DNA from: Burkholderiales bacterium | GTDB lineage: Bacteria; Pseudomonadota; Gammaproteobacteria; Burkholderiales; Burkholderiaceae_D | Length of the DNA: 20,456 nt | Direction: 5' to 3' | NCBI GenBank assembly: GCA_028868455.1 | Contig: JAGWUK010000006.1 | Location: 1 to 20,456, forward strand | Shown here: piece after piece, positions 6,089-17,659 of the stretch | Position numbering within the stretch: position 1 is the stretch's first letter | Layout: each line of letters starts with the position of its first letter | The notes under the pieces: model-generated | What the model was told of the DNA's origin: nothing | Seen by the model: only the letters and a program-made list of their open reading frames with translations | Databases searched by the model: none | Translations under genes and position numbers: made by a program

Positions 6089-7396
6089 TCATTGGTCGAT
6101 CTGTGCTTCCCTATGATGAAATGGTGCGAGCCAGCATACGATGAACGAAGGGATCGTCGCTAGCATGACAAAGATAAAGTAATGCGTATAGCCCAGCCAT
6201 TGTTGCAAATGACCACTGACGATGCCAGTGCTCATCATGCACAAACCCATCAGTCCTGTGCCAAAGGCGTAGTGCGTTGTCGTGTATTTTCCCGGTGCCA
6301 GTTGTTGCATCAGATAAATCATGAATCCTACTGAGCCAAAACCGAAAAAGAATTTTTCAACAGCGACTCCGATCGTAATCAGCACCAGGTTACTGGGTTG
6401 TGCGATGCTCAACAATAAAAAGGTGACATTCGGAATATTGACCGCGCAGCACAAAATAAACAAGGTCTGTTGCAGGCCGCGCCGCGCTACGAATACACCG
6501 CCAAGCAGTGACCCTAACAATACTGCGATCAGACCGTAAGTGCCGTAAATAATGCCGAGCAATTCATTCGACAAACCCAGTCCACCTTTTGCCACAGGAT
6601 CGACCATGAAAAATGGGCCGATTTTTTCCAGAAAACCTATGCTCAGGCGAAATAAAAATGCGAAGGCAATCATTAACCAGACATCGCGTTTCTGGAAAAA
6701 AGTCACAAACGAATCGCGCAAAATTGTCAACGCGGCGCCAAAGCTGCGCGGCGTATTGCTGGCGCGATCACCGTCCGGCATGGAACGCACATGCCACAGA
6801 CCCATGAGCAAAACAAGTGCTGCAACCAGCATAAAAATCACACGCCAGGCATCGGCCCACTCAGGCCCGAACACCTTGGGATCGTGGTGAAAAAAATCCG
6901 AATGCAGCCTGCCGCTCAGATATACCAGACCACCCGACGCGACGATGGGGCCGATGTTCCAGCTCAGGCTTTGTATGCCGCAATACAGCGATTGTGATTT
7001 GCCGTCCAACGACGTGACGTACACGCCGTCGGACGCAATATCCTGCGTGGCTCCGAGAAACGAAATTCCCCAGAACAAGGGCATGAGTACCAGCATATAG
7101 TTGGGCAGCGACATGGCCAGGGCGGCCAGTGCAAAGCCGAGGCCAATCGTGAATTGCATGCAAAGTACAAAAAATTTCTTGGTTTTGTACATTTCAACAA
7201 AGCTGGCAAACAAGGGTTTGATGGTATAAGCCAAAATCAGATAGCTCGCATACTCCGCGGCCTTGCCATTATCCATACCCATATTTTTAAACATGATCGC
7301 GGTTACGCTGGTCAGCGTCATGTATGTCAGCGCCATCGTGAAATACGCCGTTGGCACCCAGAGCAATGGAGAGTTGCTTTTGGCGGGCACAGGCAT
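6089..7396 (-). CDS. MFS permease, AmpG-like, probable oligosaccharide or glycoside importer
   Basis: Inner-membrane secondary transporter with about 12 hydrophobic segments. The stretch GISFLGATQDIASDGVYV resembles the S/A-TQDIA-D signature of AmpG-type (PAT family) permeases that import muropeptides or sugars. Three in-frame ATGs are possible: 7510 (473 aa), 7420 (443 aa) and 7396 (435 aa). I chose 7396 because GGAAG lies 5 nt upstream and MPVPAKSNSPLLWVP leads straight into helix 1; the other two lack a well-spaced ribosome site. The gene has its own terminator. A LacI-type palindrome lies upstream at 7577-7590, and it is read divergently from a beta-glucosidase with the same operators. 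I infer that it carries the sugar from periplasm to cytoplasm for that enzyme. The substrate is not determined by the sequence. Confidence 0.88.
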   Translation of the reverse strand: MPVPAKSNSPLLWVPTAYFTMALTYMTLTSVTAIMFKNMGMDNGKAAEYASYLILAYTIKPLFASFVEMYKTKKFFVLCMQFTIGLGFALAALAMSLPNYMLVLMPLFWGISFLGATQDIASDGVYVTSLDGKSQSLYCGIQSLSWNIGPIVASGGLVYLSGRLHSDFFHHDPKVFGPEWADAWRVIFMLVAALVLLMGLWHVRSMPDGDRASNTPRSFGAALTILRDSFVTFFQKRDVWLMIAFAFLFRLSIGFLEKIGPFFMVDPVAKGGLGLSNELLGIIYGTYGLIAVLLGSLLGGVFVARRGLQQTLFILCCAVNIPNVTFLLLSIAQPSNLVLITIGVAVEKFFFGFGSVGFMIYLMQQLAPGKYTTTHYAFGTGLMGLCMMSTGIVSGHLQQWLGYTHYFIFVMLATIPSFIVCWLAPFHHREAQIDQ

Positions 7397-7576
7397 GTGA
7401 ACTTCCGTCTGTATTGTCATATGAATGCTTTTTAGTGAAGCGGTATCGGATAACGCTGAGGTTTGTTCATAACAAATAAATCTGCGCGGAAATGTCGTCT
7501 GCGCCTGCATTTCTCAGCGCGATCCTGCTACATACGTGTCGATTGCACGGTTCATCAACAGTGCGAAAATTATGTT

Positions 7577-7590
7577 TGAAAACCTTTTCA
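7577..7590. promoter_or_regulatory. LacI-type operator upstream of the MFS permease
   Basis: TGAAAACCTTTTCA matches the locus consensus TGAAAACGTTTTCA except for the central CC in place of CG. The flanks TT and AA extend the symmetry. It lies immediately upstream of a minus-strand CATAAT -10 candidate (7569-7574), a position where a bound repressor would block polymerase. Confidence 0.75.
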
Positions 7591-7899
7591 AAAAAAAGAA
7601 TAACACGAAATTTTTCCTGACTAGCTGATGAGATTAAAAAAAGACACAACTCGTTGGAATTTTTTACGAAAAATAGCATTTTTGCGATCTCGAAGGGCAG
7701 ATTGGGTTGCAGAAATGATTTTTTACAAGAATTTGAAGTTTGCATCGTCTGCCTGCGCAGCCTGTAGCGTCAATCCGCGTTTTAAGGCGAAGAAGAAATG
7801 CTTTTCAGGCGAGTCAGCAGAAGGGAAAATGAAAACTGCACCGGCCAGTTGCGCTTGTCATGCCATTTTCACTCTTGTTATTACAAAACACAGAGTTGA

Positions 7900-7928
7900 T
7901 TGACATGCTGAAATCTCAATGATAAATT
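7900..7928 (+). promoter_or_regulatory. sigma-70 promoter of the GH1 unit
   Basis: -35 TTGACA (7900-7905, perfect), 17-nt spacer, -10 TAAATT (7923-7928, 4 of 6). The predicted start is near 7935, only a few nt before the perfect operator at 7939-7952, a classical repression geometry. The transcript would have a leader of about 185 nt before the 45-codon ORF at 8122. Confidence 0.6.
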
Positions 7929-7938
7929 CCCATTGTAT

Positions 7939-7952
7939 TGAAAACGTTTTCA
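7939..7952. promoter_or_regulatory. LacI-type operator 1 of the GH1 unit
   Basis: Perfect 14-bp palindrome TGAAAACGTTTTCA with the central CpG typical of LacI/PurR-family sites. It covers about +4 to +17 of the predicted GH1 transcript. Confidence 0.85.
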
Positions 7953-8076
7953 TATGCTGAATGCAAATCTGCTGTTCGCAAACGTCGACCCGATTTTCTC
8001 AACGGCGTATTTTGCCTGGAATTTGCCAGACACTTCGGCAGGTTAACAGCTTGGGTGCCGTCAATTTATCGTCGGT

Positions 8077-8090
8077 TGAAAACGTTTTCA
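8077..8090. promoter_or_regulatory. LacI-type operator 2 of the GH1 unit
   Basis: Second perfect TGAAAACGTTTTCA, centred 138 bp downstream of operator 1 and 32 nt before the leader ORF start at 8122. It could act by looping with operator 1, as a roadblock, or at a second promoter not recognised here. Confidence 0.85.
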
Positions 8091-8121
8091 GTTAAAGAGC
8101 GAATACGCTTGAGGGGAAAAC

Positions 8122-8259
8122 ATGCCACATACGAAAACAGAAATGCCTTTGCAGAAATGGCATGAGGCGCGCGCTGCAGCGTTCATCGCGTTTGCCAACG
8201 CTGACTCGTCTTTGTTTTTTCTGGGGTGCCTATTGTTAATGCCAATTTTAATTTTTTGA
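8122..8259 (+). CDS. leader small ORF, 45 aa, directly upstream of GH1
   Basis: Unrecognised 45-residue ORF. GAGGGG at 8111-8116, 5 nt before the ATG, is among the stronger ribosome sites in the window, whereas the following GH1 ATG has none. The stop TGA (8257-8259) is followed by 2 nt and then the GH1 ATG at 8262, an arrangement that allows termination-reinitiation coupling. The first 29 residues are polar to amphipathic (MPHTKTEMPLQKWHEARAAA onward). The last 15 (SLFFLGCLLLMPILIF region) form a strongly hydrophobic C-terminal tail that could insert in the membrane. It may be a functional small protein, a translational leader, or both. There is no known family to compare, so this rests on SD strength and spacing. 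Confidence 0.5.
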   Translation: MPHTKTEMPLQKWHEARAAAFIAFANADSSLFFLGCLLLMPILIF

Positions 8260-8261
8260 CT

Positions 8262-9593
8262 ATGCCGAATTCCATTTCCAGAACCATGTTTCCTTCCACC
8301 TTTTCGTGGGGCGTCGCTACCAGCGCTTACCAAATTGAAGGTGCCGCTGCAACGGATGGCCGCGGCCCGTCGATCTGGGACACTTTTACGCATAGGCTGG
8401 GAACCATTTGCGACGGCAGCAATGGGGACATCGCTTGCGACCACTACCATCGATATGCGGAAGACATAGAGCTGATTGCTTCGCTGAACGTCAATGCCTA
8501 TCGTTTTTCGGTCTCCTGGTCGCGCGTCCAGCCACTTGGATATGGTGCATGGAACGAAAAAGGATTTGATTTTTATTCCCGTCTGTTGGACAAGCTGGAA
8601 GAAAAAAATATTGCGGCACACTTAACCTTGTATCACTGGGATTTGCCGCAGGGTTTGCAGGATCGCGGTGGCTGGCTCAATCGTGAAACAACCGAGCGCT
8701 TTGCCGACTACGCGGCGGAAGTCGCGCGTCGCTTTGGTCATCGCGTCGCCAGCATTGCCACACATAATGAGCCGTGGTGTACGGCCAATCTCGGCTACGG
8801 CAATGCGCAGTTTGCGCCAGGTGTTGCTGATACCGCTTTGTCTATCCAGGTGTCACATCATTTATTGCTGTCGCATGGGCTGGCGATTCAGGCCATGCGA
8901 GCGATCAATTGTCCGGCGAAGCTCGGTATCGTGTTGAACCAATGGCCGGCAACTCCGGCAACGGATAGTGCCGCAGACAGGGCTGAAGCGGAGTGGGAAT
9001 ATGCGCGCTCTGTGCAATGGTTCATGGATCCGATTTTCAAAGGGCGCTATCCGCAAAAAGCGCTGGATCGCATGGATATGGAAAAATTTATCGTGCATCC
9101 CGGTGATATGCAAAGTATTCGGCAAACGATAGATTTTCTCGGCGTAAATTATTATTTCCGCGCATTTGTCAGTACCGAACAGCCTCCCAGAATGCCTGAG
9201 GCGGAACTCGGCTATAGCGATATGGGCTGGGAGGTCTATCCGCAAGGACTGACAAGCTTGTTGCTGGCACTGCGAGAAGAATACCCGGCCTTGCCACCGG
9301 TCTACATTACCGAAAACGGCATGGCCGTGGCCGATAAAATCGAAGATGGCAAAATCAACGATGAAGTTCGCATCCGTTATGTCGAATCGCACTTGCAGGC
9401 AATGCGTGCAGCGATGGATCGCGGCGTTGATGTGCAGGCGTATTTTTACTGGAGTCTGCTGGATAATTTTGAATGGAATTCCGGCTACGCTAAACGCTTT
9501 GGCCTCGTGTATGTCGACTACGCCAGCCAGCAAAGAACGCTGAAACAAAGCGCAATCTGGTATCGCAAGCTACTCGCCGCCGATCCAGGCTAA
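8262..9593 (+). CDS. GH1 family beta-glucosidase (or related beta-glycosidase)
   Basis: Retaining glycoside hydrolase of family 1 that removes non-reducing beta-D-glucosyl (or related) residues from small glycosides. The 443 residues form a single (beta/alpha)8 barrel of normal length. Family landmarks: FSWGVATSAYQIEG near the N-terminus (glycone-binding Gln24), HW at 125-126, acid/base Glu170 in THNEPW, nucleophile Glu351 in YITENG, and the sugar-binding WSLLDNFEW at 397-405. No signal peptide is present, so it acts in the cytoplasm on imported sugar. I chose ATG 8262 because it follows the leader ORF by 2 nt and begins just before the conserved strand; GTG 8226 (12 residues longer) and ATG 8286 are alternatives, none with a clear Shine-Dalgarno sequence. 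Two LacI-type operators and a promoter precede the unit, and a strong terminator follows. Substrate preference (cellobiose, aryl glucoside or other) cannot be read. Confidence 0.96.
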   Translation: MPNSISRTMFPSTFSWGVATSAYQIEGAAATDGRGPSIWDTFTHRLGTICDGSNGDIACDHYHRYAEDIELIASLNVNAYRFSVSWSRVQPLGYGAWNEKGFDFYSRLLDKLEEKNIAAHLTLYHWDLPQGLQDRGGWLNRETTERFADYAAEVARRFGHRVASIATHNEPWCTANLGYGNAQFAPGVADTALSIQVSHHLLLSHGLAIQAMRAINCPAKLGIVLNQWPATPATDSAADRAEAEWEYARSVQWFMDPIFKGRYPQKALDRMDMEKFIVHPGDMQSIRQTIDFLGVNYYFRAFVSTEQPPRMPEAELGYSDMGWEVYPQGLTSLLLALREEYPALPPVYITENGMAVADKIEDGKINDEVRIRYVESHLQAMRAAMDRGVDVQAYFYWSLLDNFEWNSGYAKRFGLVYVDYASQQRTLKQSAIWYRKLLAADPG

Positions 9594-9645
9594 GTACATA
9601 TTGCACCGACGCAGCCGCACGATCGTAACTGAATCCTTCGTTTGC

Positions 9646-9674
9646 CCATATCAGAAATGATGTGGTTTTTTTTT
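9646..9674 (+). terminator. intrinsic terminator of the GH1 transcript
   Basis: CCATATCA (9646-9653) and TGATGTGG (9658-9665) form an 8-bp stem with one G-T pair, capped by a GAAA tetraloop and followed by nine Ts (9666-9674). It begins about 50 nt after the GH1 stop. Confidence 0.85.
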
Positions 9675-9965
9675 GTCGATTGCATCAATGTTTGCATGGA
9701 TGCGAGGAGCAAAAAAAGACGAGATGATGATGTGAATTTTCCTGGGTTTTTTTGATGCTGCCAGGGAATACATACGTGTGTGGCGCTGTATCTTGCAGGA
9801 CTTGCCAGCAAACGCAGTGGAGTTTGCATATGCGGGGCGACTGCAAGCAGCTGGATCGCCTGCGTGTTCGTTGCGCTCGCGTTGAAGCCTGATTCCAGAA
9901 AGTGCGATTCCATTTCCGATTGACATATGGACGCCAAATCCAGTCCATTGAATTTGATGCGCCAG
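9675..9965. other. spacer between two facing terminators
   Basis: About 290 bases between the GH1 terminator and the receptor terminator. Overlapping minus-strand frames cross the spacer, but they run through both terminators and have no coding character. I see only poly-A/T tracts and a CCTGG/CCAGG inverted pair around 9750-9775. No promoter, RNA gene or protein gene was recognised. Confidence 0.5.
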
Positions 9966-9995
9966 AAAAAATGCCCCGCATGTGAGCGGGGCATT
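9966..9995 (-). terminator. intrinsic terminator of the TonB-dependent receptor transcript
   Basis: On the minus strand a perfect 10-bp GC-rich stem (9995-9986 with 9979-9970) closes a 6-nt loop and runs into a T-run (complement of 9971-9966). It is placed 30 nt after the receptor stop. Confidence 0.9.
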
Positions 9996-10024
9996 GGGTG
10001 CGACGGAGGTGGTCAGCAGAGGTA

Positions 10025-12430
10025 TTAAAAATCCGTTCCGATATTGAACCCGACCGTGCGCGGAGGCAGGTATTGCGCCAGCCAAGGCCCAAAACCGTTT
10101 AAAGCACTGGTCTTGATTTTATTGTCGCTGGCATTGCGCACATAGGCATCCAGATACCAGCTGCTCTTGCCGGTGGAGGAGTAACGCAAACCAAGGTCGG
10201 TGCGCGCATAAGCGCTTTGTTTATCGCCTTCACCAAGATTAAATACGCTCAGCCAGCTCTCGGTTTCGTAATGCAGACTGATGCGTGGAGTCAGCGTGCC
10301 TTGACTCAGATGGAAGGTATGTTGATATTGCACCTGTGTCGAAAACTTCGGCGTATGTGGCATGGTATTGCCCGTGACATCCAGACAGTTTCCAATGCCT
10401 GGGACATTGCAGGCTGGCAGGGCATAGTCGTTTGAGCCACCAATCAGTTTGCCAAGTGTCGCCTTGGTAATCGCTAAAGACACCTGAATTTTGTCATCCT
10501 TGCTGAGTCGTGCAGCCAGTTCGGATTCAAATCCATAAATTTTGGCACCTTCCGCGTTGCTGGTTGCCAGGCCATGCGAACCATCGATATTGGTGATCGG
10601 TGCGCTGAACTGGAAATCCTTGAAGTCTTCGTAATACAAGGCGTTATTCAGCTTCAGTGTGCCGCCAAAAAATGAGCTCTTGCTGCCGATTTCATAGTTG
10701 GTCAGTGTCTCCGGTCCGTAAGGTTTCCCGCCGTCTTGCAGGCCGCCGGATTTGTAGCCGGTAGAAATGCTGGCGTAGACCATATGATCTTTATCGATAT
10801 CGTAGCTGGCACGTAACAAGCCCGTCAGTTTGCTGCTGCTGTAGTTGCCATCGTTAATTGAGCTGACTGCAAAGTTGGAGCCTGGCTGCGATGCATCCGT
10901 GGAAGGCGTGATCGGACCTTGCGGCAAGCTGGCATCATATGCCCAGGCGTAGCCGCGTCCACCGACATTGCTACGTTTATCCGAGGTGTAACGTAAGCCC
11001 GCAGTCAAATGTGTTTGCTCAGATGTATTCCAGGTTGCTTGTCCAAACACGGCGCTGGATTCGACAGTTTCTTTCGGTTGAATGAACGAGCCCTGCCAGC
11101 CTACCGTACCTTGTTGCGTACCATTCATAATCGGGATATCAAAGCGCATGTCATTGGTTTCTGCGCCATAGTACAAGCCGAGTTGCCAGTCGATATCACG
11201 CTTGCCAACGGACTGCAATTCCAGCTCATGACTGTAATTCGTGTAATGCGACGTGATCGTATTGTTGGCCTGATAGCTGCCATTCGTGGTGAAACTGGTT
11301 GGCACGGTTGAGCCGCCATCCTGATCAAAGCGTGATGCACCGCTGAATTTTGAGTAACCGCCAATATAGGTCAGCGACATGGAATTACTCAATGCATATT
11401 CCATTCGGCCGCGGAAGGAATCGACATCGCGTTTCAGATACGGCGCGGTGTCGATCAATGCCGACCAAAAGCTTTGTCCTGGCCTTGGCGTTTGCAAAAG
11501 ATTCATCGACAGCGTTCCTCGGTCCATGAATTTTTCATACGACGCATCGATGCGCATGGCATTGCTCGGTTTCCACAAGACGCTAAAACGAGCGGCGCTC
11601 TGATTCTGCGCCCCATATTTCTGTCCATCCTGCACAAACAGATTCGTGTTGATGGGCTGGAAGTCCGCAATTTTTCCACCGCCAGCAAGGAAGGCCGCTT
11701 TCTGACTGTCCAGAGAAATATTCGGCGGAGTCTGAAAATCGACATAGCCGTCGTGCTGTTCATTCACGAAGGCGACGCGCATGGCCATTGTGTCGCTGAG
11801 TGGAATATTGATCGAACCACGAATACCGGATCGGTTAAAACTGCCGAGTCCACCTTCAATATTGCCAGCGCGACTGCCGAGTACCGGTTTTGCCGTTCGC
11901 ATGTTGACTGCGCCGACAGTCGCATTTCTGCCCCACAGCGTACCTTGCGGGCCACGCAAAACTTCAATGCCATCCAGATCGAACAGCAGGGCGGTTGCAC
12001 CTTCCGGGCGAGGTGAGTAAATGCCGTCAATAAACGAGGCGACTTCGGGATCGGCATATTCAGTTTTTGCGCTGTCATTGCCAACGCCGCGCATGGTCAT
12101 GGTGATGACGCCGTGGTCGCCCTCGGCAGTTGCCTGAAATCCTGGCACAAGATTCACGACATCCTGAATGGTCTGCACATGGGCATCGTCCAATGCAGCA
12201 GCGTTGATCGCCGTGATGGCCACCGGTGTCTTTTGCAGCAAGGTTGAGCGCTTGGTGCCGGTAACAATGACTTCAGAAATCTTGCCGTTATCAGCCGCCG
12301 CATTCGCTTGCGCCGGGACGCTACTGTTTGTCTGTGCATGGGCGCTGCCCATTCCGGCGACCAGCGTCAGAATGGCTAACTGTATGGGACTGGCCGAGCG
12401 CAGCCGGCCTGGAAGTGAATGGTGATTCAT
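10025..12430 (-). CDS. TonB-dependent outer-membrane receptor, likely glycoside/carbohydrate type
   Basis: Outer-membrane active transporter energised by TonB-ExbBD. The 801 residues show a signal peptide (hydrophobic core about 15-30, cleavage probably after AHA at 33), a TonB-box-like EVIVTG at 53-58, a plug domain with LRGPQGTLWGRNATVGAVN (about 158-176), and a long beta-barrel ending in a terminal Phe (IGTDF), the usual assembly signal. A strong ribosome site AGGAG lies 6 nt before the ATG. Many relatives take up iron chelates. Here LacI-type operators at its promoter, and a beta-glucosidase, sugar-type permease and LacI gene alongside, argue for a carbohydrate or glycoside substrate; that part is inference. 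It is divergent from the halogenase-like gene and has its own terminator. Confidence 0.95.
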   Translation of the reverse strand: MNHHSLPGRLRSASPIQLAILTLVAGMGSAHAQTNSSVPAQANAAADNGKISEVIVTGTKRSTLLQKTPVAITAINAAALDDAHVQTIQDVVNLVPGFQATAEGDHGVITMTMRGVGNDSAKTEYADPEVASFIDGIYSPRPEGATALLFDLDGIEVLRGPQGTLWGRNATVGAVNMRTAKPVLGSRAGNIEGGLGSFNRSGIRGSINIPLSDTMAMRVAFVNEQHDGYVDFQTPPNISLDSQKAAFLAGGGKIADFQPINTNLFVQDGQKYGAQNQSAARFSVLWKPSNAMRIDASYEKFMDRGTLSMNLLQTPRPGQSFWSALIDTAPYLKRDVDSFRGRMEYALSNSMSLTYIGGYSKFSGASRFDQDGGSTVPTSFTTNGSYQANNTITSHYTNYSHELELQSVGKRDIDWQLGLYYGAETNDMRFDIPIMNGTQQGTVGWQGSFIQPKETVESSAVFGQATWNTSEQTHLTAGLRYTSDKRSNVGGRGYAWAYDASLPQGPITPSTDASQPGSNFAVSSINDGNYSSSKLTGLLRASYDIDKDHMVYASISTGYKSGGLQDGGKPYGPETLTNYEIGSKSSFFGGTLKLNNALYYEDFKDFQFSAPITNIDGSHGLATSNAEGAKIYGFESELAARLSKDDKIQVSLAITKATLGKLIGGSNDYALPACNVPGIGNCLDVTGNTMPHTPKFSTQVQYQHTFHLSQGTLTPRISLHYETESWLSVFNLGEGDKQSAYARTDLGLRYSSTGKSSWYLDAYVRNASDNKIKTSALNGFGPWLAQYLPPRTVGFNIGTDF

Positions 12431-12486
12431 ATGTCTCCTGCATTATTGTAGGTTTTGGCCATGTCTGGCCCGAAAGCATCATGGTT

Positions 12487-12500
12487 TGAAAACGATTTCT
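12487..12500. promoter_or_regulatory. LacI-type operator, receptor-proximal
   Basis: TGAAAACGATTTCT, 12 of 14 matches to TGAAAACGTTTTCA, including the whole left half-site. It falls about +32 to +45 in the predicted receptor leader, 39 bp from the neighbouring operator. Confidence 0.65.
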
Positions 12501-12525
12501 GATCACTATGACGTGTTTTTGTTTT

Positions 12526-12539
12526 TGAAATCGTTTTCA
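12526..12539. promoter_or_regulatory. LacI-type operator overlapping the receptor promoter
   Basis: TGAAATCGTTTTCA, 13 of 14 matches to the locus consensus. It abuts the -10 box of the minus-strand receptor promoter (12539-12544) and covers its predicted start, so binding should block initiation. Confidence 0.8.
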
Positions 12540-12568
12540 TAATAAGTAGTTGCTAAATAATCTGTCAA
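12539..12568 (-). promoter_or_regulatory. sigma-70 promoter of the TonB-dependent receptor
   Basis: Minus strand: -35 TTGACA (12568-12563, perfect), 18-nt spacer, -10 TATTAT (12544-12539, 5 of 6). The start is expected near 12532, giving a leader of about 100 nt. The best promoter match in the window. Confidence 0.75.
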
Positions 12569-12576
12569 ACAAAAAA

Positions 12577-12590
12577 TGGTAACGTTTTCA
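12577..12590. promoter_or_regulatory. degenerate LacI-type site facing the halogenase-like gene
   Basis: TGGTAACGTTTTCA keeps the central ACGT and the full right half-site but has two changes in the left half. It lies 51 bp from the receptor operator, just upstream of the receptor -35 on the halogenase side, so it may serve cooperative binding or the rightward gene. Confidence 0.5.
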
Positions 12591-12694
12591 AGAATACCGT
12601 AATATGTTGTTTTGTTGAACATGTATTCAAAGCAAAAACGTTATGCGAATTCGCTTTGACGGAGTGATCCTTCCTTGTCGTGAGGAGGGGCGCC

Positions 12695-12727
12695 ATGTGG
12701 CATGACGGCCTGAACAGCTATGCGTAG
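12695..12727 (+). CDS. 10-codon mini-ORF with consensus Shine-Dalgarno, candidate leader peptide
   Basis: ATG at 12695 is preceded by AGGAGG (12683-12688), a perfect anti-16S match at 6-nt spacing, and encodes MWHDGLNSYA before TAG at 12725-12727. It lies 100 nt upstream of the halogenase-like gene on the same strand. Such a strong site in front of so short a frame suggests a translated leader peptide; chance is possible. No transcription attenuator (hairpin plus T-run) was seen after it. Confidence 0.35.
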   Translation: MWHDGLNSYA

Positions 12728-12739
12728 GTCCAGAGCCCG

Positions 12740-12769
12740 TACCAATGCTTACCAAAGCTTACCGATGCT
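12740..12769. repeat. three tandem copies of a 10-bp repeat (TACCRAWGCT)
   Basis: TACCAATGCT, TACCAAAGCT and TACCGATGCT follow each other without gaps, each outer copy differing from the first by at most one base in ten. The array ends 58 nt before the halogenase start. The 10-bp period places every copy on the same face of the DNA helix, as in direct-repeat operators, though the array may be simply a short slippage product. Confidence 0.8.
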
Positions 12770-12827
12770 TGTCCGCGTTTGCTTCTCTCCGGATAGTGCT
12801 TGATTGCAATTCAGAAGGAAATGAAAG

Positions 12828-14396
12828 ATGAATGCCGTAAAAAACGTTCTTATCGTCGGTGGCGGCACCGCAGGCTGGCTTTGCGCCTGCTTTCTGGCCA
12901 AAACATTGGGTGCGCGAGATCCGCAAGCGATACGCATTACTTTGGTGGAATCGCCAGAGATTGGCACTATTGGCGTTGGCGAAGGGAGTTTTCCTTCACT
13001 GCGCGGCACGCTGGCCGCTATTGGCATTGAGGAAGCGCGTTTTATACGAGACTGTCAGGCCAGTTTTAAACAGGGTATTCAGTTTGTCAATTGGGTGCAT
13101 CCTCCAGCGGAAACTGGCAGTCAGCATTATTTTCATCCGTTCAATCAGCCCAGTCAGCGACCGGGAGGCGTTGAATTGCTGCCGTATTGGCTACAAGGTG
13201 CTGCTGGTGACAACGTGGCATTTGCTGAGGCGGTCAGCATGCAAAAACGTATCGCCGATGCCAGTCGCGCACCGAAGCGTTTTGACGACAAAGATTTTCT
13301 TGGCCCAATGAATTATGCCTACCACTTTGATGCCGGTCGTTTTGCTCGCCTGTTGTCTGAGCATGGGCGTTCGCTTGGCGTGCATCAAATTCTGGCGACA
13401 GTGCAGGGTGTGGAGCTTGCCGAAGACGGTGCAATTGCGGCGGTTAAGACCAGCGATGGGACTGCATTGCATGCTGATCTGTATATCGACTGCAGCGGTT
13501 TTCGGGCTTTGCTGATTGGTGAGGCACTCGGAGAGCCACTGCATACGCTGGGCGATACTTTATTTGTCGATAGAGCATTGGCGTTGCAAGTACCGTATCC
13601 GGGCGATGATGCCAACATTCCTTCTTACACGATGTCCACTGCGCGAGAAGCAGGCTGGATCTGGGATATTGGTTTGCAAGACCGGCGCGGGCTGGGTTAT
13701 GTCTATTCCAGCCGGCATCTGGATGACACTCAGGCGGAACGACAATTGCGCGCCTATGCCGGGTTTGCCGGAGAGACGCAAACGGCGCGTTTGCTGAAAT
13801 TGCAGCTTGGATATCGCCATGTGCATTGGAAAAAGAATTGCGTTGCAGTTGGTTTGTCCGGCGGTTTTATTGAGCCACTGGAGGCTTCAGGCATTGGTCT
13901 GGTGGAAACAGCCGCTTATCTGATCGCCTATTTGTTTCCATTCCAAGGAAATTTTGCCGCCGTAGCAAAGACGTTTAATCAGCAAATGCAGGGGCGCTAC
14001 GAGCGCATCGTTGATTTTGTCAAAATGCATTACTGTCTGACGCAAAGAACTGACAGCGCCTTTTGGATTGACAATGCGAATCCGGATTCTATCCCGGATA
14101 GTCTCAAAGATAAGCTGGCGATGTGGCGCAGCCGCCCTCCACATCGTCTTGATTTCATTACTGATCTGGAAATGTATCCGCCTTCAAGTTGGCAATATGT
14201 ACTGTACGGGATGCAATTTAAAACGGAAATCCAAAAAAATGCCCAGGCGTATCCGTTTTTCTCGGCGGCGCAAACAGAGTTCAAAACGATTGCGACTATG
14301 GCTGAACGTGCTTTGCATGATTTGCCTTCACATCGCGTTCTGTTGCAGCAAATGTGCAGGGCAGATGCAATTACAGCACCAGCGCGATTTGCTTGA
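12828..14396 (+). CDS. flavin-dependent halogenase family protein ('tryptophan halogenase' type, substrate unknown)
   Basis: FAD-dependent enzyme family that makes HOCl from chloride, O2 and FADH2 and chlorinates an aromatic substrate; a separate flavin reductase is needed and none is seen here. The 522 residues are of normal length. Seen: N-terminal FAD motif VGGGTAGW (about 10-17), GVGEGSFPSL (49-58), SFKQG with the catalytic-Lys position K81, WIWDI at 277-281 (family motif WxWxIP, with Gly replacing Pro), and GFIEPLEASGIGLVE (346-360) holding the catalytic-Glu position E349. A usable ribosome site (GAAGGA) precedes the ATG. Relatives annotated as tryptophan halogenases often accompany TonB receptors in sugar-uptake loci, and this gene is divergent from such a receptor and upstream of lacI. 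The true substrate is probably not free tryptophan, but that is inference. Confidence 0.9.
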   Translation: MNAVKNVLIVGGGTAGWLCACFLAKTLGARDPQAIRITLVESPEIGTIGVGEGSFPSLRGTLAAIGIEEARFIRDCQASFKQGIQFVNWVHPPAETGSQHYFHPFNQPSQRPGGVELLPYWLQGAAGDNVAFAEAVSMQKRIADASRAPKRFDDKDFLGPMNYAYHFDAGRFARLLSEHGRSLGVHQILATVQGVELAEDGAIAAVKTSDGTALHADLYIDCSGFRALLIGEALGEPLHTLGDTLFVDRALALQVPYPGDDANIPSYTMSTAREAGWIWDIGLQDRRGLGYVYSSRHLDDTQAERQLRAYAGFAGETQTARLLKLQLGYRHVHWKKNCVAVGLSGGFIEPLEASGIGLVETAAYLIAYLFPFQGNFAAVAKTFNQQMQGRYERIVDFVKMHYCLTQRTDSAFWIDNANPDSIPDSLKDKLAMWRSRPPHRLDFITDLEMYPPSSWQYVLYGMQFKTEIQKNAQAYPFFSAAQTEFKTIATMAERALHDLPSHRVLLQQMCRADAITAPARFA

Positions 14397-14431
14397 TGCG
14401 CAATCTCCTGCATGTTGAAATGACGCATACC

Positions 14432-14460
14432 TTGTCCAGTGCCAAAACAAAGCGTAGTAT
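14432..14460 (+). promoter_or_regulatory. candidate promoter of the LacI-family gene
   Basis: -35 TTGTCC (14432-14437, 4 of 6), 17-nt spacer, -10 TAGTAT (14455-14460, 4 of 6), predicted start near 14467. The palindrome at 14469-14482 begins right at the start site, which raises confidence in a modest promoter. Confidence 0.5.
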
Positions 14461-14468
14461 CCTTGCCT

Positions 14469-14482
14469 TGAAAAGCTTTTCA
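14469..14482. promoter_or_regulatory. LacI-type operator, autoregulatory site
   Basis: TGAAAAGCTTTTCA is a perfect palindrome identical to the locus consensus except that the centre is GC instead of CG. It lies 5 nt before the first ATG of the regulator and at +2 of its predicted transcript, indicating self-control. Confidence 0.75.
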
Positions 14483-14487
14483 CAATA

Positions 14488-15531
14488 ATGCTGACTGATT
14501 CTGGAAGGGTTGAAGTGCAGGAAAAAGAAAATACGCAACCAGTGACATTGCTGGACGTTGCACGTGAAGCCGGAGTTTCGCCGAGCACTGTGTCACGTAT
14601 CCTCAACGGTACTGCCAAAGTATCACCTGATAAACGCAAGGCAGTAGAAACAGCCATTGCGACAATGAAGTTTGAACCCAATCAGTTAGCGCAGGGCCTG
14701 AAGAGCGGCCGTTCCATGACGATAGGTATTGTCGTGCAGGATATCGCCAGTCCTTTTTTCGATGAAACCTTGCATGGTGTGGATGACGGGTTAAAGGACA
14801 CAGGCTATGCGTCTGTCATCGTCAGTGGGCACTGGAACGCTGCAGAAGAAGCTGCGCGCATCAAATTGCTGCTGGCCAGGAAAGTTGACGGCATCATCTT
14901 GCTGTCGGGGCGCATTGAAGACAAAACCGTACTGGAGTTCTCAAAACACCGCCCGATTGTGGCAACTGGCCGCGCTTTACACAGCGCAACAGCAATAGGC
15001 TTTAAGCTGGATAATGAATACGGTGCTTTTCTTGCAACTCGCCATTTGATTGAACTAGGACATCGCCGGATTGCCTTCGTCAGTGGCCCTGTCAATAATA
15101 GCGATGCGATGGAGCGGCTGGCTGGTTACCGTCGTGCTTTGCAAGAGAGTGGCATTGAGTATGAAGAAGAACTGGTGGCCGAAGGGAATTTCCACGAGGC
15201 CAGTGGTTTAATGGCAATCCATCATCTGATTGAAACGCAGCGCCAATTTACGGCCGTGTTCGCCGCCAACGACCTGACGGCCTACGGTGTACGCCTTGGA
15301 CTGTATCGCAAAGGTATTCGGGTACCTGAGGATATTTCCCTGATTGGTTTCGACGATTTGCCGAGTTCCACCTATACGACACCTCCACTCACTACCATCC
15401 ATCAACCCCTGTACGACATGGGGCTGCTTGCAACACGCACTTTACTGGCATTGATCAGTGGCGATGAAATCGTCAACCAACTCCCACCTTTGGAATTAAT
15501 CGCCAGAGAAACGACGCGTCGCCTTCGCTAA
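14488..15531 (+). CDS. LacI-family transcriptional regulator of the sugar-uptake locus
   Basis: Repressor of the LacI/GalR family: N-terminal HTH TLLDVAREAGVSPSTVSRILNG (about residues 20-41), hinge helix (PNQLAQGLKSGRS region, about 69-81), then a periplasmic-binding-like sugar-sensing domain (about 80-345) with the typical DDLPSSTYTTPPLTTIHQP near the end. Length 347 aa from ATG 14488. A GTG at 14515 with GGAAGGG 5 nt upstream is an equally good start (338 aa), since the HTH begins only later. A perfect operator-like palindrome precedes the gene. The same palindrome type in front of the permease, GH1 and receptor genes points to this protein as their common repressor; the inducer is presumably the transported sugar or its breakdown product. 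Confidence 0.95.
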   Translation: MLTDSGRVEVQEKENTQPVTLLDVAREAGVSPSTVSRILNGTAKVSPDKRKAVETAIATMKFEPNQLAQGLKSGRSMTIGIVVQDIASPFFDETLHGVDDGLKDTGYASVIVSGHWNAAEEAARIKLLLARKVDGIILLSGRIEDKTVLEFSKHRPIVATGRALHSATAIGFKLDNEYGAFLATRHLIELGHRRIAFVSGPVNNSDAMERLAGYRRALQESGIEYEEELVAEGNFHEASGLMAIHHLIETQRQFTAVFAANDLTAYGVRLGLYRKGIRVPEDISLIGFDDLPSSTYTTPPLTTIHQPLYDMGLLATRTLLALISGDEIVNQLPPLELIARETTRRLR

Positions 15532-15712: not shown

Positions 15713-16351
15713 ATGTCATGCCCATTTAAGCCGCGTTGGGAGCGAAGGAAAGACGCACGCCCCCAGGAACTATTGGCCGCCGCGCTGGATTTGTTTGTTG
15801 AGCGTGGATTCGCTGCAACACGTCTGGACGATGTTGCACGTGCGGCAGGTGTATCCAAAGGAACCCTGTATTTGTATTTTTGCAGCAAAGAAGAGCTGTT
15901 TAAAGCGGTTGTCCGGGAAGGTATCGTTCCGATGATTGGTGAGGCGGAAGCGCTCATTGAACAGTTTGCCGGCACAACGGAAGAATTATTCGGATTGGTG
16001 ATGACAACCTGGTGGCGCAGTGTCGCCGATACCAAGCTGTCTGGTCTACCAAAACTGATGATTGCCGAGGCCGGGAATTTTCCTGAACTGGCCAGGTTCT
16101 ATCAGGAAGAGGTGATTACCCGTGGTGAAAAAATGGTGGCAACAATGCTGAAGCGGGGCATGGAACGCGGCGAAATCAGGCCGGTTGATCTGGAAGTAGA
16201 TAGCAGGATTCTGGTGGCTCCGATGATCATGATGATGCTCTGGAAACATTCCCACGGTGTTTGCCAGATTGAGCCAGAAAAACTCGGAACGTACCTGGAG
16301 CACTACATAGAGCTGACTTTGCATAGTTTGTTGTTAAAGCCAGCAATTTAG
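15713..16351 (+). CDS. TetR/AcrR-family transcriptional repressor
   Basis: One-component repressor of 212 aa: N-terminal HTH (about residues 18-65, LDDVARAAGVSKGTLYLYFCSKEELFKAVV) and a helical ligand-binding C-terminal domain. Length and motif are typical. The ATG at 15713 is the only sensible start; its ribosome site is weak (GAG about 8 nt upstream). It stands upstream of and in line with a periplasmic adaptor and an RND pump, so it most likely represses this efflux unit and itself through the dyad at 15684-15705, releasing on binding a pump substrate. That link is inferred from position. Confidence 0.93.
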   Translation: MSCPFKPRWERRKDARPQELLAAALDLFVERGFAATRLDDVARAAGVSKGTLYLYFCSKEELFKAVVREGIVPMIGEAEALIEQFAGTTEELFGLVMTTWWRSVADTKLSGLPKLMIAEAGNFPELARFYQEEVITRGEKMVATMLKRGMERGEIRPVDLEVDSRILVAPMIMMMLWKHSHGVCQIEPEKLGTYLEHYIELTLHSLLLKPAI

Positions 16352-16370
16352 CGTTTTATTTGGAGAATGC

Positions 16371-16399
16371 TTGACCCTTACACAATGTCAGGCTTTAAA
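16371..16399 (+). promoter_or_regulatory. weak candidate promoter before the efflux adaptor gene
   Basis: -35 TTGACC (16371-16376, 5 of 6), 17-nt spacer, -10 TTTAAA (16394-16399, 4 of 6), in the 126-bp gap between the TetR and adaptor genes. It could give the pump a second promoter; otherwise the three genes are read from 15651-15679. Confidence 0.35.
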
Positions 16400-16477
16400 G
16401 TGATCAGCGAAGCTGTCATTTTCAGGCGTCGCAGATAGCTGGACATTTTGTGCATGAATACTTTCGGAAAATGAATC

Positions 16478-17659
16478 ATGTTAAAGCGTAAGGGTCTTTG
16501 GATTATCGTTGCATTCCTCTTGATGGGAAGCGCGTTCATCATTGGGAAAAAGAAACAACACGGCATAACGCCGCCGGTGGCGACTGCATCTACTGCCAGT
16601 CAGGCACCTGTGCTTGAGTTTTTGCCTGATGACGTCATCGAAGTAGTTTCTGCCGATATACAAAAAAAACTGACCGTATCAGGTGCATTGCGAGCATTGA
16701 ATCAGGCGTCTGTAAAAGCCAGGGTGGCTGGAGAAGTCAGTGAAGTATTGGTGCGCGAAGGCGAAGCAGTACAGCAAGGTCAGATTCTGGCGAGGATGAA
16801 TACCTCAGATTATCTTGCAAAGCTGGCTCAGGCGCGCGGAGCTTTGTCGGCAGCACAAGGACAGCTGGACATAGCGCGTCAGGCGCGTGACAACAATCGG
16901 GCTTTGCTAGACAAACATTTCATTTCCCAAAGTGCCTACGACAATACCAATAACCAATTGGCCATTGCTTCTGCGAATGTCGAAAGCGCAAGAGGGGCGC
17001 TGGAAGTGGCGCAAAAAGCGCTTGCCGATACGGTGGTGCGCGCGCCAATTTCGGGCATGATTAGCAGCCGTAGCGTACAGCCCGGAGAAAAAGTGTCTCC
17101 CGACAACCGCTTGCTTGATATTGTTGATTTGCGCGTACTGGAAATGGAAGCGCCGGTGCCAACGCAGGATATTTCCAGTGTCAGACTGGAACAGTCCGTG
17201 GAGTTGCAGATCGAAGGTGTATCAGAAAAAGTAACAGGAAAGGTCAGCCGGATAAACCCCGCTACAGCACCTGGCTCGCGTTCGATCATGATTTACGTGC
17301 AGGTCGAAAACCGCGACCAAACCCTGCGCGCCGGTATGTTTGCCGAGGCGCAGCTGGTGACAGATAAACGGAACAATGTATTGACCTTGCCGCAAACGGC
17401 GATTCAGTATGAAGGTGACAAAGCTTTTGTTTACGCGATTGAAAATAATATTTTGCTGCAAAAGCCTGTCACCCTTGGTTTGCAAGGCAGCAGCAATGGC
17501 GTTCCCGCTATTCAGGTGAATGCTGGACTTCGTAGTGGCACCAAGGTCGTTAAGGCCAACCTCGGAAGTTTGCGGGCGGGATTGACTGTGCGTTTCGTTA
17601 AGCCAGTTCAGCAGCCAGCGCAGCCGGTTCAGTCAACCCAGCCAGCGGATAAGGTGTAA
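16478..17659 (+). CDS. RND efflux periplasmic adaptor (membrane fusion protein)
   Basis: Periplasmic subunit linking the inner-membrane RND pump to an outer-membrane channel. The 393 residues show an N-terminal hydrophobic segment (about 7-24) without a lipobox Cys, so it is probably a membrane-anchored or cleaved periplasmic protein. Then come the first lipoyl half (VKARVAGEVSEVLVREGEAVQQGQIL, about 78-103), an alpha-helical hairpin rich in Ala/Gln/Asn (about 112-178), the second lipoyl half (VVRAPISGMISSRSVQPGEKVS, about 185-206), a beta-barrel, and a membrane-proximal domain. The C-terminus ends in a Pro/Gln-rich tail (KPVQQPAQPVQSTQP). It is 3 nt from the next gene, so the two are co-transcribed. 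Substrates are unknown. Confidence 0.94.
   Translation: MLKRKGLWIIVAFLLMGSAFIIGKKKQHGITPPVATASTASQAPVLEFLPDDVIEVVSADIQKKLTVSGALRALNQASVKARVAGEVSEVLVREGEAVQQGQILARMNTSDYLAKLAQARGALSAAQGQLDIARQARDNNRALLDKHFISQSAYDNTNNQLAIASANVESARGALEVAQKALADTVVRAPISGMISSRSVQPGEKVSPDNRLLDIVDLRVLEMEAPVPTQDISSVRLEQSVELQIEGVSEKVTGKVSRINPATAPGSRSIMIYVQVENRDQTLRAGMFAEAQLVTDKRNNVLTLPQTAIQYEGDKAFVYAIENNILLQKPVTLGLQGSSNGVPAIQVNAGLRSGTKVVKANLGSLRAGLTVRFVKPVQQPAQPVQSTQPADKV

Follow-up and report, generated by a model that had tools for sequence, protein, structure and literature searches.

The 20,456-nucleotide stretch of DNA considered here (the window) comes from a Burkholderiales bacterium, by inference a member of the genus Undibacterium, and carries a run of five genes for an AmpG-like MFS permease, a GH1 beta-glucosidase, a TonB-dependent receptor, a halogenase-like flavoprotein and a LacI-family regulator. 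Judged from its sequence and that of its relatives, this locus is very probably a local, self-contained LacI-family regulon for beta-glucoside uptake and hydrolysis whose repressor is autoregulated. Copies of one 14-bp operator-like site stand upstream of the five genes, are specific to the locus, are conserved among relatives, co-occur with the regulator gene and fall into two classes that differ in their central step, CG or otherwise.

With mismatches counted to TGAAAACGTTTTCA and the backward pattern as control, the seven sites that a sequence-only reading of this DNA had placed at 7577, 7939, 8077, 12487, 12526, 12577 and 14469 are all present, with 1, 0, 0, 2, 1, 2 and 2 mismatches respectively, two of them thus being perfect. 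Allowing up to 3 mismatches, the window has 11 matches versus 1.50 expected, and 0 of 100 shuffles reach that number. The remaining four matches (5309, 12616, 18673 and 19005) have 3 mismatches each, and the accompanying statement that the flanking genes lack a comparable site is true at up to 2. The match at 12616 was tried as an eighth operator and set aside, a counterpart not being seen in the printed loci of relatives. That a site precedes each of the genes is also correct, most weakly for the halogenase-like gene: 251 bp separate its start from the beginning of the closest listed site, which falls in the region common to the divergent receptor gene.

The own-genome scans refer to an assembly of 4,098,572 bases in 879 contigs, 89.87% complete, in which the window is contig C252. 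They give 22 places at up to 2 mismatches, 7 in the locus and 15 outside, and because the backward control also gives 22, the outside places are at chance level; at 0-1 mismatches all four places are in the locus and the control gives 0. The motif is therefore not equally frequent genome-wide, the check that had been proposed for it, and 7511-14487 would be expected to hold 0.026 sites if they were as dense there as outside the locus. Exact TGAAAASSTTTTCA occurs four times in the genome, each time in the locus, and exact TGAAANCGNTTTCA five times, three of them in the locus (control 0). The two outside TGAAANCGNTTTCA places were rejected as regulon members: one is inside a 531-amino-acid open frame and the other 56 bp past the end of a 202-amino-acid frame that looks pilin-like.

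A search of 35 other genomes of the genus and of 24 genomes from other families of the order found a LacI orthologue (71-86% identity) in 21 of the former and a 53% identical relative in one of the latter. Sites at up to 1 mismatch average 4.1 in the 21 genomes with the orthologue versus 0.93 in the 14 without (Mann-Whitney p=3.5e-6). Among the 22 LacI loci compared (L126-L147, 21 from the same genus and one distant, some ending at a contig end), all five genes are present in 14 of the 21 same-genus stretches (L126-L130, L135-L141, L143 and L144). Gene order is as in the window, with permease and GH1 genes divergent, in L126-L130, L138 and L139; lacI and GH1 are divergent and the permease gene lies behind the halogenase gene in L135, L136 and L144; receptor, GH1 and permease genes stand in a row in L137, L140, L141 and L143. 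Most relatives have sites at the equivalent promoters, the sites move with the genes in these rearrangements, and the DNA-recognition segment of the regulator, SP[SA]TVSRILNGTA, is kept in all rows of the group of at least 69% identity except one (SAS).

Several observations weigh against so tidy an account. The control pattern is also somewhat commoner where the orthologue is present (2.4 vs 1.6, p=0.06), and, among the matches listed, part of the counted genome sites fall outside the locus. Seven of the 21 same-genus stretches, some of which end at a contig end, are without the full five genes: L131 and L142 have only LacI and GH1, L145 LacI and the permease, L132-L134 no permease, and the short contig L147 LacI alone, while the distant relative L146 has no halogenase match in its stretch. 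There is no site before the GH1 gene in 9 of 26 copies and the permease gene in 10 of 22, such copies often being located behind a receptor gene on the same strand. Of the compact regulon with its own regulator that had been claimed, what stands is the locus-specific motif, its co-occurrence with the LacI orthologue and the movement of sites with rearranged genes; that the LacI-family product is the protein that binds them is the part that we infer.

The elements of the locus are as follows, operators being given without strand.

6089..7510, reverse strand: MFS permease, AmpG-like (PF07690, E=1.5e-13; 140.8 bits to TIGR00901, below the AmpG muropeptide transporter subfamily cut-off of 350)
7577..7590: permease operator, non-CG centre, TGAAAAGGTTTTCA in gene orientation, 1 mismatch
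7597..7605, reverse strand: permease extended -10 (TGTTATTCT), 6 nucleotides before the operator; the same element is in 10 of 10 hand-chosen permease promoters
7900..7928, forward strand: GH1 promoter, TTGACA, 17 nucleotides, TAAATT (best-scoring candidate, letters checked)
7939..7952: GH1 operator 1, a perfect motif match with CG centre, 10 nucleotides past the -10
8077..8090: GH1 operator 2, a perfect motif match with CG centre, 138 bp downstream of operator 1
8262..9593, forward strand: GH1 beta-glucosidase (TIGR03356, 592.2 bits against an equivalog cut-off of 478.5), ATG at 8262, frame open from a GTG at 8226
10025..12430, reverse strand: TonB-dependent receptor (PF00593 and PF07715)
12487..12500: receptor operator downstream of the promoter, motif match, CG centre, 2 mismatches
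12526..12539: main receptor operator, motif match, CG centre, 1 mismatch, its first base being the last base of the -10
12539..12568, reverse strand: receptor promoter, TTGACA (12568-12563), 18 nucleotides, TATTAT (12544-12539), from a promoter scan with letters checked
12577..12590: upstream receptor operator, motif match, CG centre, 2 mismatches; the listed site nearest to the halogenase gene
12828..14396, forward strand: halogenase-like flavoprotein (PF04820, E=1.3e-135)
14458..14463, forward strand: lacI -10, TATCCT, in which the TG of an extended -10 is TA (letters checked)
14469..14482: lacI operator, motif match, GC centre, 2 mismatches
14488..15531, forward strand: LacI-family regulator (PF00356 and PF13377 above cut-off)

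The called lacI ATG (14488) is only 5 nucleotides past the operator, and the start is probably, on sequence grounds, the GTG at 14515 behind GGAAGGG. The distances between sites give a mixed picture for looping as judged from helical phase, with 138 bp (13.1 turns) and 51 bp (4.9) on one side and 39 bp (3.7) and 362 bp (34.5) on the other.

The non-CG sites had been taken earlier as imperfect copies of the others. As sites they are real, but the imperfect-copy view gives way to one of conserved variants particular to permease and repressor. This was counted mechanically in 27 loci, the window's among them, with a LacI at least 69% identical, taking for each gene copy the site nearest the start, with arms at up to 1 mismatch and the centre left free, and with identical upstream sequences counted once and near-identical ones separately; the count replaces an earlier Fisher test on hand-picked sites from which exceptions had been left out. 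The nearest site has a CG centre in 21 of 22 receptor, 16 of 17 GH1 and 17 of 18 halogenase copies (54/57 together), versus a non-CG centre, chiefly GC, GG or CC, in 11 of 12 permease and 22 of 25 lacI copies (33/37 together). Copies without a site number 0 for the receptor, 9 for GH1, 2 for the halogenase, 10 for the permease and 3 for lacI. The Fisher p is 1.6e-17; leaving out the halogenase, which has its sites in common with the receptor, gives 1.3e-14, and both values are too small because the loci are related.

Promoter type goes along with centre in a count that rests on main sites chosen by hand from the loci of relatives. TTGACA occurs within 52 nucleotides upstream of the main site at 13 of 16 receptor and 10 of 13 GH1 promoters versus 0 of 10 for the permease and 0 of 13 for lacI, with the qualification that in L146, one of the 13 receptor cases, it is not at -35 spacing. 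Conversely, TGnTAnnCT is upstream in 0 of 16 receptor and 0 of 13 GH1 cases versus 10 of 10 for the permease, in all of which it ends 5-6 nucleotides before the site, and 12 of 13 for lacI, where it does so in 9 of 13; the sole lacI promoter without the TG is the window's own.

Hinge helices of LacI-family proteins are generally described as inserting leucines at the central operator step. In the accessible text of a LacI-family survey (PMC4052901), 1251 of 1303 regulators have even palindromes, with the centre CG in 1173, another step in 49 and degenerate in 29. Weaker binding would therefore be expected at a non-CG centre. The proposal from these sequence comparisons, about evenly poised between right and wrong, is that the central step (CG versus GC, GG or CC) and the two promoter types form a two-state code read by one LacI-family repressor, giving two conserved levels of repression that have been kept through rearrangements. 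Under the same proposal the catabolic and outer-membrane genes would be tightly repressed, and those of importer and repressor only leakily. Two facts count against the code: seven gene copies break the centre rule, and in a distant LacI group (48-60% identity) the lacI operator has a CG centre in 5 of 5 cases, seven further copies being without a site.

Given this distant group without the pattern, and given that the loci are related, promoter-specific centres might instead be inherited accidents of kin sequences carrying no functional weight. This is possible but rather doubtful, as centre and -10 have been kept although the sequence upstream of the main sites has diverged, and the permease site retains its GG/CC centre after its move behind the halogenase gene (L135, L144). 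A different LacI-family protein reading the non-CG permease and repressor sites, with two regulators sharing the locus, would suit both the consistent difference between the classes and the four other LacI-type DNA-binding domains encoded in the genome, but is improbable: the arms of the non-CG sites are identical to those of the CG class, the recognition segments of the other four (STTTVSHV, STSTVSRA, SKTTVSRA and STITVSRA) differ from the SPSTVSRI of the locus, and exact non-CG sites of this kind occur only twice in the genome, both times in the locus, so that a second regulator would own only these.

The product of 12828-14396 is the only PF04820 match in its own genome assembly. In neighbourhoods of 80 of 99 relatives (L046-L125), a similar receptor gene adjoins that for the halogenase in 74, divergently in 57 and codirectionally in 17; in the rest it is elsewhere in the stretch (2) or undetected (4, one at a contig end). 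The 80 stretches yielded a LacI-family gene in 64 cases, GH1 in 44 and an MFS gene in 38. In loci outside Burkholderiales the LacI genes found are 27-37% identical to the window's and the motif is mostly absent; the halogenase/receptor pair therefore travels with different regulators. The pairing extends to genomes of Caulobacter, of Sphingomonas type and of Xanthomonadales, whose LacI proteins are quite unlike the window's, and points to a general tie of this enzyme family to uptake through receptors.

It is accordingly unlikely, though known PF04820 enzymes act on indoles and other aromatics in the accessible text of PMC5945002 and PMC7336383, that receptor and halogenase belong to another pathway, for iron or an aromatic compound, and merely adjoin the sugar genes: beyond the associations just given, three operators of the same motif stand at the receptor promoter and are conserved. 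The best NCBIfam matches of the receptor, all below cut-off, are siderophore receptors, which does count against a carbohydrate assignment. L047 and L068 have a glucokinase gene between those for GH1 and permease, and the loci L064 and L068 contain ABC-type solute-binding and membrane components, the solute-binding-protein frames having a motif site at or close to their start (L064 12116, L068 727); with such genes in the relatives' loci a carbohydrate role is therefore well supported. The window's own genome has three glucokinase-family genes, none on the window's contig. At L064 16212 and L068 4743 the motif also matches at nearly the same place within the GH1 coding sequence, a match that would reflect conserved codons or an internal operator and that was not used as evidence.

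Of the earlier claim that receptor and halogenase are members of a carbohydrate pathway, the carbohydrate part is supported, and direct control of the halogenase gene is its conditional part. This gene belongs by association, and direct control would come from the divergent region shared with the receptor gene; a promoter scan before it in the window gives weak candidates, none recognised as a promoter. A site over the halogenase start codon in L134, L135, L136 and L144 was rejected as proof of direct control: it coincides with MKPIS/MKTIS codons, and is weak evidence because L138 and L139 have an MKPI-coding start but no full site over it. In L129, a long run of a CTGCTA-type repeat (10100-10440), absent from the other loci printed, separates the halogenase gene from the operators.

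The halogenase-like protein has the flavin motif GxGxxG as GGGTAG at residue 11 and, at 79, SFKQG, which 9lu2, 2pyx and 9ltb share in alignment and whose lysine is read as the probable catalytic lysine. It also has PLEASG. The tryptophan halogenase motif WxWxIP is absent, WIWDIG standing at 277 instead; the proline at this position is also missing from 9lu2, 2pyx and 9ltb, its best solved relatives, against which it scores higher than against BrvH or Xcc4156. The likeness to these two, in the accessible text of PMC5945002 and PMC7336383, extends to PF04820, GxGxxG, the catalytic lysine and natural substrates that are not known, the difference being their WxWxIP; free tryptophan is not halogenated by either. 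A search of open-access literature, subscription papers and preprints being outside its coverage, did not find a tryptophan halogenase with a TonB-dependent receptor and LacI, nor with TonB-dependent polysaccharide utilization, and the association of halogenase, receptor and LacI may be in print elsewhere. Open-access papers naming tryptophan halogenase with TonB are, by title, on iron limitation, phenazines and oil dispersants.

As to neighbouring features, the GH1 protein carries NEP at residue 169 and TENG at 350, which we take to be the catalytic motifs of the family. Between GH1 operator 2 and the GH1 gene, a 45-amino-acid open frame (8122-8259) with a plausible ribosome-binding site ends just before the ATG; as a leader peptide it was dismissed, not being seen in the five relatives checked (L126-L130). 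After lacI come genes for a TetR-type regulator and an RND-type adaptor (15713-17659), relatives of both being near lacI in L127, L129, L131, L134 and L142.

In the regulon as proposed, the receptor would move the sugar across the outer membrane and the MFS permease across the inner one, with a cytoplasmic GH1 enzyme freeing glucose. Without sugar, a LacI-family dimer on TGAAAnCGnTTTCA operators at the transcription starts would block transcription, and a beta-glucoside or its product would release it. Shut-off of the receptor (three CG operators) and GH1 (two) would be tight because their TTGACA promoters are combined with several CG-centred operators, whereas the permease and repressor genes, with no TTGACA and one non-CG operator each, would always yield some importer and repressor because those operators are probably bound less tightly. 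The halogenase-like gene would probably be co-induced via the receptor's control region.

The predicted system is an ordinary one, arranged like CUT loci and the BglR regulons predicted in other bacteria. As with other local LacI regulons, the regulator has a LacI-type helix-turn-helix and a periplasmic-binding-type domain, the sites are even palindromes, and both conservation and co-occurrence are found. In the main text of PMC2996990, Shewanella BglR is a predicted LacI-type regulator with sites before a beta-glucosidase, an inner-membrane transporter and a TonB-dependent receptor, the beta-glucosidase being cytoplasmic; its regulon has a GPH-family transporter, a second beta-glucosidase, a glucanase, a glucose permease and glucokinase, where the window has an AmpG-like MFS permease and a halogenase-like gene, a halogenase being absent from that main text. 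Caulobacterales BglR1-3 and similar LacI regulons (PMC4052901, accessible text) are likewise local and autoregulated, with an even CG-centred palindrome. The cooperative tandem spacing in that text, 21-22 bp, fits the tandem sites 19-21 bp apart in L132, L135, L140, L141 and L144; different or degenerate centres are counted there per regulator, a promoter-specific centre within one regulon not being described in it. Xanthomonas CUT loci such as sux (PMC1790865) bring together a TonB-dependent receptor, an MFS sugar transporter, a hydrolase-type gene and a LacI/GalR repressor, but sux handles sucrose and its main text has no halogenase.

The analysis gives a regulator, predicted operators and predicted promoters for an Undibacterium beta-glucoside locus, and links a widespread gene of tryptophan-halogenase type to uptake loci that have such receptors and regulators of the LacI type. 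What may be new is the pair of site classes, which, if true, would be a simple case of a repressor leaving the importer and itself leaky while the rest is shut off.

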